Of a stretch of 64,000 nucleotides of DNA, positions 1,401-50,584 are shown piece after piece. Where the stretch lies: assembly GCA_017467905.1 (NCBI GenBank), contig JAFUKD010000002.1, positions 1 to 64,000 of the forward strand, written 5' to 3'. Every line of letters starts with the position of its first letter. Positions within the stretch are counted from its first letter, which is position 1. The notes beneath the pieces were generated by a model, which was not told the origin of the DNA, did no database searches, and saw nothing but the letters and a program-made list of their open reading frames with translations. Source of the stretch: Phascolarctobacterium sp. (GTDB taxonomy: Bacteria; Bacillota; Negativicutes; Acidaminococcales; Acidaminococcaceae). Made by a program: the position numbers and the translations under genes.

Positions 1401-1519
1401 GGAAAGCCTTAGAAGCAAAGTCTAACTGTGTTGAAACTAAGATTGCTTGCTCGACGTACTACTCGCTTTCGCAGCACAAGCCTCGTTGCTTTGCGTCTGC
1501 TGGTACTTCTAAGGCTTTT
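1401..1519 (+). repeat. Dispersed ~120-bp structured element, copy 1
   Basis: One of three related intergenic elements in the window. The ends pair strongly: AAAGCCTTAGAAG at the left with CTTCTAAGGCTTT at the right. The interior holds the shared words TAACTGTGTTG and TTGCTCGACGTAC. This copy lies between the terminator of the ABC ATPase gene and the next promoter, and no open frame fits it. Compared with copies 2 and 3, the end arms differ in sequence but remain complementary, which suggests a folded RNA or single-stranded DNA. Function unknown. Confidence 0.7.
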
Positions 1520-1575
1520 GTGTAATTTGCATTGTTTATGTTATAATGGTAAGCAGAAAGGAAGATACATATATA

Positions 1576-6455: not shown

Positions 6456-8135
6456 ATGCAACAGGCAAAACAGTATGTGCCTTTTGAACGCGTTAGCCTG
6501 CCTGACCGTCAATGGCCGGATAAAATTATTACTAAAGCACCCATCTGGTGCAGCGTTGACTTGCGCGACGGCAACCAAGCCCTTGTTACCCCCATGGGTA
6601 TTGAAGAAAAACTTACCTTCTTCCACACTTTGGTTGATGTTGGTTTTAAAGAAATTGAAGTAGGGTTCCCCTCTGCTTCTGAAACTGAATATGAAATTTT
6701 GCGTACCTTGATTGAAGGCAACCACATCCCTGATGACGTTACCATTCAAGTTTTGGTGCAAGCCCGCGAAGAACTTATCCGCAAAACCTTTGAAGCAGTC
6801 CGCGGCGCGAAAAACGTAATCATCCACTTCTACAACTCTACTTCTACTTTGCAACGTAAGGTTGTATTTGGCAAGGACATGGATGGTATCGTGGATATTG
6901 CAGTGCAAGGTGCAAGGCTTATTCGCCAGCTGACGGAAGAAGAGATTGCCCGCAGTGGTATGAACATTCGCTACGAATATTCTCCCGAAAGCTTTACCGG
7001 TACTGAAATTGATTTTTCCATCAGAATTTGCGAAGCTGTTATGGAAGAGATGGGTGCTACCAAGGAGAACCCCATTATTCTCAACCTGCCTTCCACTGTG
7101 GAAATGTGTACTGCTAATACCTATGCAGACCAAATTGAATATTTCTGCCGTAATATGAAGAACCGCGAAGCTGCCATTATCAGTATTCATCCCCACAATG
7201 ACCGCGGTACCGGCGTTGCTTCCGCAGAGCTGGCGCTGATGGCTGGTGCTGACCGTATCGAAGGTACTCTCTTTGGCAATGGCGAACGTACCGGTAACTT
7301 GGATATCGTTACCGTTGCGCTGAATATGTTTACCCAGGGCGTTGACCCTGAGCTGGACTTCTCCCATATTCTGGAGATTAAAAAGATTTACGAAGCTTGC
7401 ACCCATATGCACGTTCCAGAACGTCAGCCCTACGCAGGGGAGCTTGCCTTTACTGCCTTCAGTGGTTCCCACCAAGACGCAATCCGCAAAGGCTTTGAAT
7501 ACATGGAAAATACCGGCACTCCTTTCTGGGAAGTTCCCTATCTGCCCATCAACCCTGCAGATTTAAATCGCGAGTACGAACCGGTTATCCGTATCAACAG
7601 CCAATCCGGCAAGGGTGGCGCTGCTTTCGTACTGCAGCACGCTGTGGGCTACAACCTGCCCAAAGAAATGCATCCTGAATTTGGAAACATTGTTAAGGCT
7701 GCGGCAGATGAATTTGGCGACGAGCTGAGCCAAGACCAAATTGTTGACCTGTTCCAACGCGAATACATTGGCTTCCATGGCTTGTACAAGCTGCTCCGTC
7801 ACCGCTTCACCGAGCTCAACGAAGCAGATGGCAGTGTGCATAGCCGCTTTGAAGGCGCTATCAATGTTGGCGAAAAAGAATGTAACATTGTGGGCGTGGG
7901 CAATGGTCCTATCGACTCCTTCTTCCAGGCGTTGGCGAACGCAGGCATTGTAGGCTACGAATTTGTTAACTACCACGAACACGCAGTATCCAGTGGTTCC
8001 AACGCACAAGGTATCTGCTACATTGAATTGAAGAAGCCTGACGGAGAGCATATTTTCGGTGCAGGTATTCATCCGAATATTAACGTGGCGGCGTTGCTTG
8101 GTATTATTTGCGCTATCAACCGCGCAGAGAAATAA
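6456..8135 (+). CDS. leuA: 2-isopropylmalate synthase (type 2, ~560 residues)
   Basis: Condenses acetyl-CoA with 2-ketoisovalerate, the first committed step of leucine synthesis, in the cytoplasm. The 559 residues match the longer LeuA2 group. The TIM-barrel domain shows the catalytic and metal motifs DLRDGNQAL (near residue 37) and HPHNDRGTGVASAELAL (~250), then GTLFGNGERTGN. The last ~150 residues form the LeuA allosteric domain, with FHGLYKLLRHRF preceding it and the glycine-rich NIVGVGNGPIDSFFQAL inside it, so leucine feedback is expected. The start follows GGAGG by 6 bases. No other leu gene is adjacent, so leuA is a single-gene unit. It is controlled by the strong promoter and the leader terminator upstream. 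Confidence 0.96.
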   Translation: MQQAKQYVPFERVSLPDRQWPDKIITKAPIWCSVDLRDGNQALVTPMGIEEKLTFFHTLVDVGFKEIEVGFPSASETEYEILRTLIEGNHIPDDVTIQVLVQAREELIRKTFEAVRGAKNVIIHFYNSTSTLQRKVVFGKDMDGIVDIAVQGARLIRQLTEEEIARSGMNIRYEYSPESFTGTEIDFSIRICEAVMEEMGATKENPIILNLPSTVEMCTANTYADQIEYFCRNMKNREAAIISIHPHNDRGTGVASAELALMAGADRIEGTLFGNGERTGNLDIVTVALNMFTQGVDPELDFSHILEIKKIYEACTHMHVPERQPYAGELAFTAFSGSHQDAIRKGFEYMENTGTPFWEVPYLPINPADLNREYEPVIRINSQSGKGGAAFVLQHAVGYNLPKEMHPEFGNIVKAAADEFGDELSQDQIVDLFQREYIGFHGLYKLLRHRFTELNEADGSVHSRFEGAINVGEKECNIVGVGNGPIDSFFQALANAGIVGYEFVNYHEHAVSSGSNAQGICYIELKKPDGEHIFGAGIHPNINVAALLGIICAINRAEK

Positions 8136-8256
8136 AACTTTCCATAAGCACTGCCTAACTGTGTTGCCGTAAAATTACTTGCTCGACGTACCACTAGTAC
8201 GCCTTCGCGACATAATTTTACGTCGCCTTGTTATCCAGCACTTCTGAAAAGTTTTT
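8136..8256 (+). repeat. Dispersed ~120-bp structured element, copy 2
   Basis: It begins directly at the leuA stop. The outer arms are AAAACTTTCCATAAG and CTTCTGAAAAGTTTT (13 of 15 pair). A middle stem CGTAAAATTA / TAATTTTACG is perfect. The inner CGTAC-CACTA-GTACG is a hairpin with the shared TTGCTCGACGTAC core. It shares TAACTGTGTTG with copy 1. A true terminator follows at 8291, so this element would be transcribed as the leuA 3' end. Confidence 0.75.
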
Positions 8257-8330: not shown

Positions 8331-10094
8331 TTACTTGAATTTATTTTTTAGACGGTTCAACAGCTCGTCAACAGCTTCCCCTGCATCCTGCACGCTTTCT
8401 TTGAGCGCGCTCTTGAGGCTGTCAATCTCCAAGCCCCAATCGATACGGATGGCGTTCTTTTCCAAGGAGCAGTGAATAGGGATGTTCTTGTTAAAGATTA
8501 ACCAGTAGTTTTCTCCCAGGCCCACGCCCTTTTCGTCCGTAAGGATTCGTCCGTGAATGTTGCTTAAAGGCAGGTTGCGGTACTTAATGTTTTCAATACG
8601 GTAGATACCGTTCACTGCGACACTGCGTTCTTCAATATTGCCGCTAATGGTCGTGTAGAAGAAGGTTTCCCCTTTGATGGGCTGGTCCGTCAGAAGAGCG
8701 ATATCCAGCTGGTTGCCGCTTAGGTGCAGTGTGTAATCACCATTGTTCAAATTGATAAGGCAATCATCTAGGGCAACCTTACTGCCATTAACATAACAGC
8801 TGGCGTGTTTAATGGTAACAATTCCTTCGTCAAGCTCTACCTTGCCGCAGAAGTTTTCTGCAATTATGGAAGCTTGATTGGGAATGTCAAGGCGCAAGGT
8901 TCCTGCCATGGCAAGGTCAATAACAGTTTTGCCTTCTATCCGCTGGGCACTGCCCTGTAAATTGAAGCCATCAAAAATATTGATGTCCACATTGTTCTTC
9001 AAAAAGATTTTGTCGCTGCGTAGCTTTAGCTTAAATTTATAAGCAGGGTCATTGGCTTGCGGGGTAGTAACCATGCCGTCAACACGCAGAGTGTGGTTGT
9101 AAAGCTTTAGCTCCAGCTTCTTGATGTTGAAGGTATCCAAATCAGTACTGCTAAAGCGCCCGTCAATTTCTTCAATGATAATGCCATGGCTGGCAAGCAT
9201 AATGTCATTAAGGTTCCAGCTGATGGACATTATAGACCAGGCATTGTTCTTACGTTCCACCAGCATTTTAAAATCTGTAGCTTCGCCGTCCAGTAAATTG
9301 ATGCGCTCAATTTTAAAAATAGGGGCGAGGATGTTCCACAAGCGTTTAAGAGAAACCTTGGAAGCTCGCAGCAGATAACGGTTAATGCTGTTTTGGTTTT
9401 GGATGCTGATGTTTTCATCTTCCAGCTGGCAGGTAAGGTAGTAGTCAATTACCGGGTCGTTACGCCACACACCGTTGATGTTTTCCAAACGCAAACGCTG
9501 TCCGTTAATTTTTAAATCTACAATGCCACGTTCAAGGTACAGCTTTAAATTAGGAAGCTTTGCTTCCGAAGGGCTGCCTGCCTCGTCTGTAGAGGAGGCT
9601 TGTGTCGTAACGCTTTCCATATATTGGGTCAGGAGCAGCTTGTTTTCCAAGGTGTATTCCATATTGAACATAGGCTGCTTTAAAATAATTTCCTGAACAA
9701 TGCCAAGAAATTTTTCTAAAGGCTCCTTGCGGATTAGGCACAGCAGCACCTGATAAATATTGGTGCGTACTTCAACCTCATGGACATTCAGGCGTTCTTC
9801 ACCTGTAGCATCCTTCCAGCACAAATTGTAGAGGATAATCTTATCCGTTTGGATGGAAGGGTTATCGTCAATGGTAAGGCTTCCGGGTAAGAAGTGCTGC
9901 TTTGCTAAAAGGCGGTTGACAATTTCCTGGGAAATATTCCAGCCCAGGGATTTGCAGGCAAAGGCAATGATGGCTGAAAAGGACAGCCACATCAATTTTA
10001 TGCTGATGTCGATAATGGCAATGCCGCCGAACACAACAAGGAAGGCGCACAGCACAGTAATCAATATAATTACGGCAATAACTTTCTTTAGCAT
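8331..10094 (-). CDS. AsmA/TamB-like membrane-anchored protein
   Basis: A 587-residue protein with an N-terminal hydrophobic stretch (residues ~3-48) and then a long region of alternating beta-type segments. Phrases such as LRVDGMVTTPQANDPAYKFKL, IDLAMAGTLRL and YTLHLSGNQLDI resemble the repeating beta-groove of AsmA, TamB and YhdP proteins. Those proteins span the periplasm and help move lipid or assemble the outer membrane. The C-terminus is a charged helix (VDELLNRLKNKFK). The start follows GAGG by 8 bases. A role in the envelope of this diderm is consistent with the adhesin nearby but is inference. No single diagnostic motif is seen, so the family call is moderate. Confidence 0.55.
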   Translation of the reverse strand: MLKKVIAVIILITVLCAFLVVFGGIAIIDISIKLMWLSFSAIIAFACKSLGWNISQEIVNRLLAKQHFLPGSLTIDDNPSIQTDKIILYNLCWKDATGEERLNVHEVEVRTNIYQVLLCLIRKEPLEKFLGIVQEIILKQPMFNMEYTLENKLLLTQYMESVTTQASSTDEAGSPSEAKLPNLKLYLERGIVDLKINGQRLRLENINGVWRNDPVIDYYLTCQLEDENISIQNQNSINRYLLRASKVSLKRLWNILAPIFKIERINLLDGEATDFKMLVERKNNAWSIMSISWNLNDIMLASHGIIIEEIDGRFSSTDLDTFNIKKLELKLYNHTLRVDGMVTTPQANDPAYKFKLKLRSDKIFLKNNVDINIFDGFNLQGSAQRIEGKTVIDLAMAGTLRLDIPNQASIIAENFCGKVELDEGIVTIKHASCYVNGSKVALDDCLINLNNGDYTLHLSGNQLDIALLTDQPIKGETFFYTTISGNIEERSVAVNGIYRIENIKYRNLPLSNIHGRILTDEKGVGLGENYWLIFNKNIPIHCSLEKNAIRIDWGLEIDSLKSALKESVQDAGEAVDELLNRLKNKFK

Positions 10095-48549: not shown

Positions 48550-49209
48550 TTACAGTTTGTTTTTGTTGAGCTTCTTACTCATCCAATCACCGAAGGATTG
48601 CATAACCTGAACCATTACGATGAGGACAACAACGGTAACAATCATAACGTCCATTTGGAAGCGTTGGTAACCGTAGCGGATTGCCAAGTCACCTAAGCCG
48701 CCACCGCCAAGGGCGCCAGCCATTGCAGAGTAACCAATCAAGCTGATGATGGCAAGGGTTACACCTAATACGATGGAGTGGAGTGCTTCCGGCAGTAAAA
48801 CCTTGGTGATGATTTGCATGGGGCTTGCGCCCATTGCTTGAGCTGCTTCAATGATACCGGGGTTGATTTCCAGCAAGGAAGATTCAATGATGCGGGCGAT
48901 GAAGGGCGCTGCAGAAATTGTCAGCGGTACGATTGCCGCGGTGGTGCCAATGGAAGAGCCTACAATCATACGGGTTACAGGGATGATTGCAACCATGAGA
49001 ATGATAAAGGGAGTGGAACGGGTTGCATTAACAATTGCGCCTAACACTGAGTTGATGGCTGCATTGGGAAGGATATGGTCTTTACGAGTTACAGTTAAGA
49101 TTACACCCAAGGGCATACCTACTGCGGTCGCGAGAGCTGCAGAAGCGAAAACCATATAGCAGGTTTCCCAGAAAGACTTTATCAAAAGATCAATCATATC
49201 AGGACTCAT
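48550..49209 (-). CDS. metI: Methionine ABC transporter permease
   Basis: 219 residues with five helices and the coupling loop EAAQAMGASPMQIITKVLLPEAL. I start at ATG 49209, 9 bases after GGAGG, rather than a TTG two codons earlier. The gene overlaps the end of metN by 11 bases, and its ribosome site lies within metN. It forms the transmembrane homodimer of the importer. Confidence 0.95.
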   Translation of the reverse strand: MSPDMIDLLIKSFWETCYMVFASAALATAVGMPLGVILTVTRKDHILPNAAINSVLGAIVNATRSTPFIILMVAIIPVTRMIVGSSIGTTAAIVPLTISAAPFIARIIESSLLEINPGIIEAAQAMGASPMQIITKVLLPEALHSIVLGVTLAIISLIGYSAMAGALGGGGLGDLAIRYGYQRFQMDVMIVTVVVLIVMVQVMQSFGDWMSKKLNKNKL

Positions 49210-50236
49210 AACCAATTACCTCCGTTTTCAGATTTTGGTTGTGCAAGTAAGCCAAAGCATTGTCAATACCTTCGTGAGTACCGGAGATTTCAACAATCAA
49301 TGTGCCGAAGGGAACATCTTTCAGTTGAGCGATGTTGCCAAACAGAATACTTACATCTACGTCAAACTTCTTAACCATGCCGGAAACAATGGGTTCGCCT
49401 GCAGAATCACCTAAGAAGGAAAGGCGCACGATAAGCTTGCTGCCATTCACATAGGTATCGGTCAGGTTCATATTCTGGATGATTTCAGGAAGTTCTGCGT
49501 TCATAACGCTCTTAGTAAATTCTTTAGTGGTTTCGTGCTGCGGGTTGGTGAACACTTCTACCATTTCGCCTTGCTCAATGATGGTGCCATTGTCGATTAC
49601 GGCAACGCGGTCGCAAATTTCAGTTACTACTTCCATCTGGTGAGTGATGAGGACGATGGTAAGCTGCATTTTTTTGTTAATGTCCTTGAGCAAATCCAAA
49701 ATAGATTTGGTGGTTTGTGGGTCAAGAGCGCTGGTTGCTTCGTCACACAGCAAAACTTTAGGGTTGCTTGCCAAGGCACGGGCGATGCCTACGCGTTGCT
49801 TTTGACCACCGGAAAGCTGGCTGGGATAATAGTTGGCTCTGGTTTCCAGTTGCACCAGTTCCAGAAGAGGACGCACGCGTTTATCAATCTCTGCCTTGCT
49901 AAGACCTTGGATTTCCAGAGGGAAGGCGATGTTGTCATAAACAGTGCGGGATGCCAACAGATTAAAGTGTTGGAAAATCATGCCAATGCTTTGACGGGTT
50001 TTACGCAGCTGGGAATCGTTCATGGAAGTAAGCTCTGCTCCGTCAACAAATACTTGACCGGCAGTGGGGCGTTCCAACATGTTGATGCAGCGAACCAGAG
50101 TTGATTTACCTGCACCGGACAAACCAATGATACCGAAGATTTCGCCGGCATTGATAGACAGGTTGGTAGTCTTTAAAGCGTGGATGTCGCCAGCTTTGCT
50201 GTAATATGTTTTTTCTACATTTACTAGTTCTATCAT
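49199..50236 (-). CDS. metN: Methionine ABC transporter ATPase
   Basis: 345 residues. Walker A is GLSGAGKST, the signature is LSGGQKQR, Walker B is LLCDEATSALDPQ, and the H-loop is ITHQM. The C-terminal ~95 residues are the NIL domain (LTDTYVNGSKLIVRLSFLGDSAGEPI) that binds methionine and blocks transport when it is abundant. AAGGAAAT precedes the ATG. It is first in metNIQ, 27-170 bases after a dispersed element and a SAM-I riboswitch. Confidence 0.96.
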   Translation of the reverse strand: MIELVNVEKTYYSKAGDIHALKTTNLSINAGEIFGIIGLSGAGKSTLVRCINMLERPTAGQVFVDGAELTSMNDSQLRKTRQSIGMIFQHFNLLASRTVYDNIAFPLEIQGLSKAEIDKRVRPLLELVQLETRANYYPSQLSGGQKQRVGIARALASNPKVLLCDEATSALDPQTTKSILDLLKDINKKMQLTIVLITHQMEVVTEICDRVAVIDNGTIIEQGEMVEVFTNPQHETTKEFTKSVMNAELPEIIQNMNLTDTYVNGSKLIVRLSFLGDSAGEPIVSGMVKKFDVDVSILFGNIAQLKDVPFGTLIVEISGTHEGIDNALAYLHNQNLKTEVIGYES

Positions 50237-50252
50237 TTTTTTATTTCCTTTC

Positions 50253-50376
50253 GAAAAGCTGTATAAGCACCATTATGCTGTGTCACAGCTCATTTACTTG
50301 CTCGACGTACGCTAAGTACGCCAGCGCTTCATAAATTTTGCTGTTCCTTACCTTCTGGCACTTCTCCAGCTTTTAA
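50253..50376 (+). repeat. Dispersed ~120-bp structured element, copy 3
   Basis: The end arms AAAGCTGTATAAG and CTTCTCCAGCTTT pair at 11 of 13 positions. The core TTACTTGCTCGACGTAC is shared with copy 2 and is followed by GCTAAGTACG as a hairpin. Relative to the met operon the element is antisense and lies between the riboswitch terminator and metN, so it is part of the metN leader RNA in reverse. Copies 1 and 2 lie downstream of genes instead. Confidence 0.75.
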
Positions 50377-50403
50377 TTTCTACAAGTTAAATTAAAAACC
50401 ACA

Positions 50404-50560
50404 AAAAACCCTTCAATCCAGTCTCCACCAGATGAAGGGTACATATCTTGCGTTTGCACTTCTTCATCTGCCGGAATGTTCCGTTGGATTTGGCACCGTT
50501 CACCAAAAGTGTGGTTGCCGTAGCTTCATTGGGCCAGTCCCTCAGCTACTCTTGATGAAT
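50404..50560 (-). promoter_or_regulatory. SAM-I riboswitch (S-box) with terminator, controlling metNIQ
   Basis: On the minus strand the aptamer (50462-50560) begins ATTCATCAAGAG, then has the conserved GAGGGACTGGCCC, ATGAAGC, CGGCAACC and GGTGCCAAATCC, and closes with GATGAA pairing to TTCATC (P1). A terminator at 50409-50439 (CCCTTCATC.../...GATTGAAGGG) is followed by TTTTTT. SAM binding stabilises the aptamer and allows termination, shutting metNIQ when SAM is plentiful. Confidence 0.96.
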
Positions 50561-50584
50561 TTTTTGTTAACTTAACGACTTAAT

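Follow-up and report, generated by a model that had tools for sequence, protein, structure and literature searches.

The window analyzed here is a 64,000-nt stretch of a Phascolarctobacterium sp. genome, and it carries three copies of a non-coding, palindromic element (Table 1). Copy 1 lies about 50 nt 3' of an ABC-transporter ATPase gene (303-1349), beyond that gene's own terminator (1361-1392). The left end of copy 2 falls within the stop codon (8133-8135) that closes an isopropylmalate-synthase-like gene (6456-8135). Copy 3 lies within the leader of a minus-strand gene (49199-50236) for a metN-like ABC ATPase, where positions 50237-50561 hold a SAM riboswitch (50461-50561, minus strand), the riboswitch terminator, copy 3, and the start of the metN-like gene, in this order. 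Placed between the riboswitch and the ribosome-binding site, copy 3 could alter the switch. Riboswitch leaders carry copies more than once, since an FMN riboswitch in a second locus (L040) also lies about 50 nt from a copy of the element (1332-1448 and 1501-1623). Elsewhere in the window, a 587-amino-acid open frame on the minus strand (8331-10094) gave no Pfam match at E 0.001.

The three copies, which had been predicted from the window's letters, were recovered by a covariance model and are related along their full length. All three contain the exact 14-mer CTTGCTCGACGTAC. The word CTGTGT, also proposed as shared, is indeed common to the three, but it marks a subfamily only, and most copies of the element read CTTTGT. 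The left and right ends pair in each window copy, as the original prediction stated. Copy 1 is atypical and partly decayed: the GTAC half of its central hairpin is deleted, and its left half belongs to one subfamily while its right half resembles another.

Table 1. Element copies in the window, with their outer arms and conserved cores
Feature	Sequence	Positions	Strand	Remarks
Copy 1		1401-1520	+	120 nt, 94.5 bits
Copy 1, left outer arm	AAAGCCTTAGAAG	1403-1415	+	pairs with 1506-1518
Copy 1, conserved core	CTTGCTCGACGTAC	1446-1459	+	
Copy 1, right outer arm	CTTCTAAGGCTTT	1506-1518	+	
Copy 2		8134-8255	+	122 nt, typical member, 114.4 bits
Copy 2, left outer arm	AAAACTTTCCA	8134-8144	+	pairs with 8245-8255, one mismatch
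Copy 2, conserved core		8178-8191	+	
Copy 2, right outer arm	TGAAAAGTTTT	8245-8255	+	
Copy 3		50253-50375	+	123 nt, 115.5 bits
Copy 3, left outer arm	AAAAGCTG	50254-50261	+	pairs with 50367-50374
Copy 3, conserved core		50297-50310	+	
Copy 3, right outer arm	CAGCTTTT	50367-50374	+	

Fold, covariation and strand polarity

The pairing of the ends is only part of the fold, as the whole element is an imperfect palindrome of about 40 pairs. Its outer arms are variable and mutually complementary and are followed inward by a second variable complementary stretch; the apex is a conserved hairpin that reads GGCGTAC-N5-GTACGTC on the folded strand. About 41 pairs hold across 130 distinct copies from the genus, many of them with two or three frequent pair types (one example is A-T in 61 copies and G-C in 55). 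In a set of 29 genus copies, 88.4% of the cells are paired, versus 80.8% when partners are shuffled (0 of 500 shuffles reached the observed value) and 29-43% when the two sides are slid by 1-3 columns. Both sides have changed in 23 pairs of this set and in 33 of the 40 pairs of a second set, 34 copies from diverse genomes, whose covariation score was reached by none of 500 shuffles. The compensatory change first noticed between the window copies is thereby confirmed.

Palindromes are known to be corrected by intrastrand template switching, and the copying of one arm onto the other could by itself produce many pairs with both sides changed, without selection on the fold. We consider this origin very improbable. 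Complementarity extends from end to end of the element and breaks off sharply beyond the outermost pair, without extension into the flanks; the element therefore has defined ends, and such an abrupt stop argues against template switching. Moreover, that process acts equally on both strands and would lead to neither a G-U bias nor fixed wobbles, both of which are found here.

The two strands differ markedly in their folding. The complement of the written strand is the more stable one in 129 of the 130 genus copies with RNA parameters and in 128 with DNA parameters, and the same holds for 61 and 66, respectively, of 68 copies from other genomes. In the window, copy 1 included, the better-folding strand is thus the minus strand, not the strand on which the original prediction described the element. 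The ratio of G-U to A-C cells in the genus copies is 380:37 on the complement versus 67:105 on the written strand; outside the genus it is 165:36 versus 125:132. Four fixed columns contribute about 280 of the 380 G-U cells, and without these columns the ratio is about 97:34. Twelve tRNAs at the element loci, a small control, gave 13:0. Two mismatches are fixed on the written strand (T opposite C in 84 of 87 copies, C opposite A in 79 of 87), and they correspond to G-A and a wobble on the folding strand. Copies from other genomes often have CATCTG opposite CATCTG on the written strand, equivalent to a tandem G-A motif (CAGATG/CAGATG) on the folding strand. An argument that the element lacks a G-U preference and is hence not RNA-type was discarded: it had scored the written strand with Watson-Crick pairs only, and the complement shows the G-U excess.

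A G-U excess on one strand is a classical RNA signature and counts against a single-stranded DNA reading. The folding strand might be transcribed, as a leader, an antisense or a small RNA, with the fold selected in the RNA. Covariation in which G-U outnumbers A-C by 10:1 on one strand, comparable in kind to that of the tRNAs, speaks for this possibility, and so do some copies whose folding strand is the sense one in a leader, such as copy 3 at the metN-like gene. Against it, the mRNA of the adjacent upstream gene would carry the poorly folding strand in most copies, and we detected on the folding strand neither a conserved promoter nor an excess of -10 motifs next to the right end. Because of these two observations we favor hairpin DNA over RNA and regard a structured RNA as possible but doubtful. 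The original prediction, a folded RNA or hairpin DNA under selection, thus stands as to a folded nucleic acid and narrows, short of proof, toward hairpin DNA.

The core TTGCTCGACGTAC-N5-GTACGCC is nearly invariant and the length, near 122 nt, is constant in very different genomes. Both features would also suit a double-stranded site or cruciform that is bound by a chromosomal protein with a nucleoid or regulatory role, spread by transposition and selected for binding. However, such a site is symmetric and gives no reason for a strand-specific G-U excess or for strand-specific fixed mismatches, and we judge it improbable.

Distribution and placement at gene ends

The original prediction spoke of three dispersed copies. 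The element is indeed dispersed, but its number in the genome is far higher. Searching the window's own genome for the 14-mer and its near matches gave 62 occurrences, versus 19 for a reversed control. A covariance model built from 29 copies, with full-length copies counted at E < 1e-8, finds about 65 in this Phascolarctobacterium-type genome and 57, 31, and 58 in three sister species; all genus genomes are draft metagenome-assembled genomes (MAGs), E-values are rough, and the alignment used (A5) was fitted to the model. Two of the 65 (L041 and L042, on contigs C33 and C35 of G000) are identical in element and flanks, and likely represent an assembly duplicate. A lack of further copies or of covariation had been named as what would speak against the element; both further copies and covariation were found.

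In most other genera of the same family, no copy is detectable with the genus model, and the lack of the element from so many of them argues further against a double-stranded chromosomal site. Related loci in Formimonas, in a Syntrophobacterales MAG, and in several Negativicutes follow the same plan, with arms that are quite different yet complementary. R2, a broader model based on 34 copies of diverse genomic origin, finds the element in at least 69 of 150 Negativicutes genomes (38 of 71 genera, a lower bound) and in at least 26 of 249 genomes drawn from the phylum, with a capped number of candidates scored per genome. By eye, the core flanked by complementary sequence was also recognized in Pseudomonas and an uncultured proteobacterium, but a search there gave no above-threshold match. 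Roughly half of the Negativicutes sampled thus carry one family of constant length and fold, which also occurs in scattered genomes outside the class. In two genomes (G044, loci L261-L268, and G041, L233), the copies share longer conserved flanks (gacagataggc... and ...cctatcttcgtacta), and the repeated unit there therefore exceeds 122 nt.

Copies are placed directionally with respect to genes. The left neighbor points in the same direction in 94 of 124 usable copies, with open reading frames called mechanically, and for 79 of these 94 upstream genes the stop codon ends within a span that reaches from 14 nt inside the element to 7 nt beyond its left end. For the right end and converging genes, such closeness to a stop codon was seen in only 2 of 36 cases. 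In other genomes, 33 of 68 left ends versus 5 of 68 right ends are near a stop. The same stop codon can be occupied by different subfamilies in sister species (e.g., ...SVTVE*). The genes next to the copies are unrelated to one another, which speaks against a structured RNA. A role as intrinsic terminator was rejected, as genes retain their own terminators beside the element in the flanks that were read.

In 47 of 58 copies the written strand coincides with the strand of positive GC skew, which places the folded strand on the leading-strand template; this share is no higher than that of genes. The influences of genes and of replication on orientation could not be told apart (81% versus 78%), and since orientation follows both, the replication argument is confounded.

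Mobility and relation to known elements

Comparison of flanks between species revealed sites filled in one species and empty in another, showing that copies are mobile on the scale of species. We thus describe a family of dispersed, non-coding, palindromic elements of about 122 nt with this mobility. Mobility, stop-codon placement, and wide distribution go beyond the original prediction. At many orthologous sites, two or three species each have a copy, but of different subfamilies with different arms. Short repeats, AGCAC among them, have served as endpoints of internal deletions, and what looks like an empty site is in some cases the remnant of a deletion; exact insertion boundaries are uncertain because most empty sites come from genomes that are 10-20% diverged. 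This gain and loss between species counts against a structured RNA.

Resident copies evolve under weak constraint, since in eight close orthologous pairs the differences amount to 2.8% at paired positions, 4.7% at unpaired positions, and 6.0% in the flanks. The closest pairs show almost only one-sided changes, and we infer that covariation accumulated mainly in moving lineages. Furthermore, 8 of about 111 typed copies (about 7%) are chimeras joined at the conserved core, in which inner pairing falls from 0.95 to about 0.5-0.66. The divergence figures, the one-sided changes, and the chimeras, which stay unpaired, all argue against template switching; the chimeras with their much poorer inner pairing count against a structured RNA as well.

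No target-site duplication was found at the element copies, and a TA target duplication as in ERIC or RUP was accordingly rejected. In three loci (L075 1177-1299, L077 5454-5576, and L036 1501-1623), the left arm equals a pre-existing gene end and the right arm complements the left; for L075 and L077, the C terminus is conserved in the empty ortholog. Copying of the right arm from the target end is suggested by L075, L036/L078, L077, and L059. As a general rule, a left arm that is always the target, with the right arm as its inverted copy, was rejected, since arms are mostly inherited with the subfamily.

The family resembles ERIC in size and REP in position, yet fails the defining features of each. 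ERIC/IRU elements are 127-bp imperfect palindromes found in intergenic regions of enterobacteria in tens of copies (PMC2229807, PMC10969869). They are nearly the same size as our element, are often located at 3' ends, and are likewise elements for which orientation matters; however, they have TA termini and a target duplication (PMC2229807), whereas the present family lacks the duplication and its arms vary between copies. REP/REPIN sequences are short palindromes, mobile on the species scale and close to gene 3' ends (PMC3733652), as are the copies described here, but REPs measure 20-40 nt and bear a GTAG or CGTC tag. Our element is a single palindrome of about 122 nt, and no unpaired tag of this type was seen at its ends. 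REP/REPIN are associated with RAYT (Y1) transposases, while no Y1 transposase was found in the three sister species (G001, G002, and G003) or in G019 and G034, all of which bear copies; the window's own genome has two matches. Like MITEs of the ERIC, RUP, or Correia type, the element is short, non-coding, and dispersed, with terminal inverted repeats. Unlike in MITEs, these repeats vary between copies, target-site duplication is lacking, and the G047 and Formimonas loci examined hold no resident insertion sequence with matching ends.

Integron attC sites are located after a stop codon. They are also imperfect palindromes of variable sequence and maintained pairing whose bottom strand folds, and in sedentary integrons these bottom strands lie on the leading-strand template (PMC5371416). 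The present family shares the single-strand fold with bottom-strand polarity, and its matching orientation is a further point for single-stranded DNA over RNA, but attC sites have a variable center and conserved ends, the reverse of what we observe, and our copies are isolated among housekeeping genes. Instead of RYYYAAC on the left and GTTRRRY on the right, the element has a left arm GTT... and a right arm ...AAC, in reversed order and without agreement with the consensus letters. Moreover, for the integron integrase IntI, none of 13 genomes has a match above the TIGR02249 cut-off. Three of the four genus genomes lack a reverse transcriptase. Mobilization by Y1/RAYT, integron integrase, or reverse transcriptase is not supported, as none of these enzymes is common to the carriers, a negative result that counts against a single-stranded DNA element moved by a protein. 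Xer-type recombinases below the integron cut-off are ubiquitous, control genomes included; their role as mobilizer is neither supported nor excluded.

In Geobacter metallireducens, 24 copies of predicted short RNA elements have been reported (Aklujkar et al. 2009, PMC2700814), multi-copy and intergenic with a central palindrome, GRCGTAGCGCTGCTACGCC, and present also in other Geobacter and in Desulfotalea. As far as their core in the figure legend allows comparison, they share the core GRCGTAS-N5-STACGCC with the present family, and the name given to elements of the same core layout favors the structured-RNA possibility. The relevant part of that report (PMC2700814) does not describe covariation, strand polarity, stop-codon placement, or the wider distribution. 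For element copies, no Rfam 15 family reached the gathering score, in line with the original statement that no named RNA family is recognized and counting against a structured RNA. A literature search by sequence words returned nothing relevant. With no name, Rfam entry, or described mobilizing enzyme found, the family appears to be unnamed; among dispersed repeats of palindromic form, its strand polarity is unusual, its ends covary, and its distribution is very wide.

The strand-specific fold, the covarying arms, the placement at stop codons, and the lack of target duplication point to a movement of DNA that the tested enzymes do not account for. Our preferred explanation, to which we give a probability of about one-half, is a non-autonomous mobile element that acts as a single-stranded DNA hairpin, combining a REP/ERIC-like anatomy with an attC-like strand logic. 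Single-stranded DNA would be the form under selection. A trans-acting protein may read the folded strand by its shape, fixed mismatches, and apical hairpin, not by arm sequence, and insertion by this protein would leave no target duplication; the arms would covary because they are free to change provided that both change together. Once resident, copies would decay, be deleted, or recombine with each other via the core they share. The preferred orientation would exclude the strong hairpin from mRNA and place it on the leading-strand template, much as for integron attC sites. A wider proposal, which we advance only tentatively, is that of an ancient and widespread class of single-stranded DNA hairpin elements in Bacillota and Desulfobacterota, inserted in a set direction at the ends of genes by a recombinase, either the host's or an unknown one, as free-living attC-like sites outside integrons.

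For annotation, the family accounts for many unexplained intergenic palindromes, and it alters the last few codons and the 3' untranslated regions of dozens of genes per genome. Two variants were observed along the way. In G047 (L251, about 1477-1540), the arm sequence CAGGCTGTTGAAAAAGG...CCTTTTTCAACAGCCTG also occurs free-standing, as a hairpin of about 40 nt without the element's center. A Formimonas locus (L242) carries a variant element with the center GGCGTATTCACGATACGCC and a duplicated left arm, apparently another subfamily.
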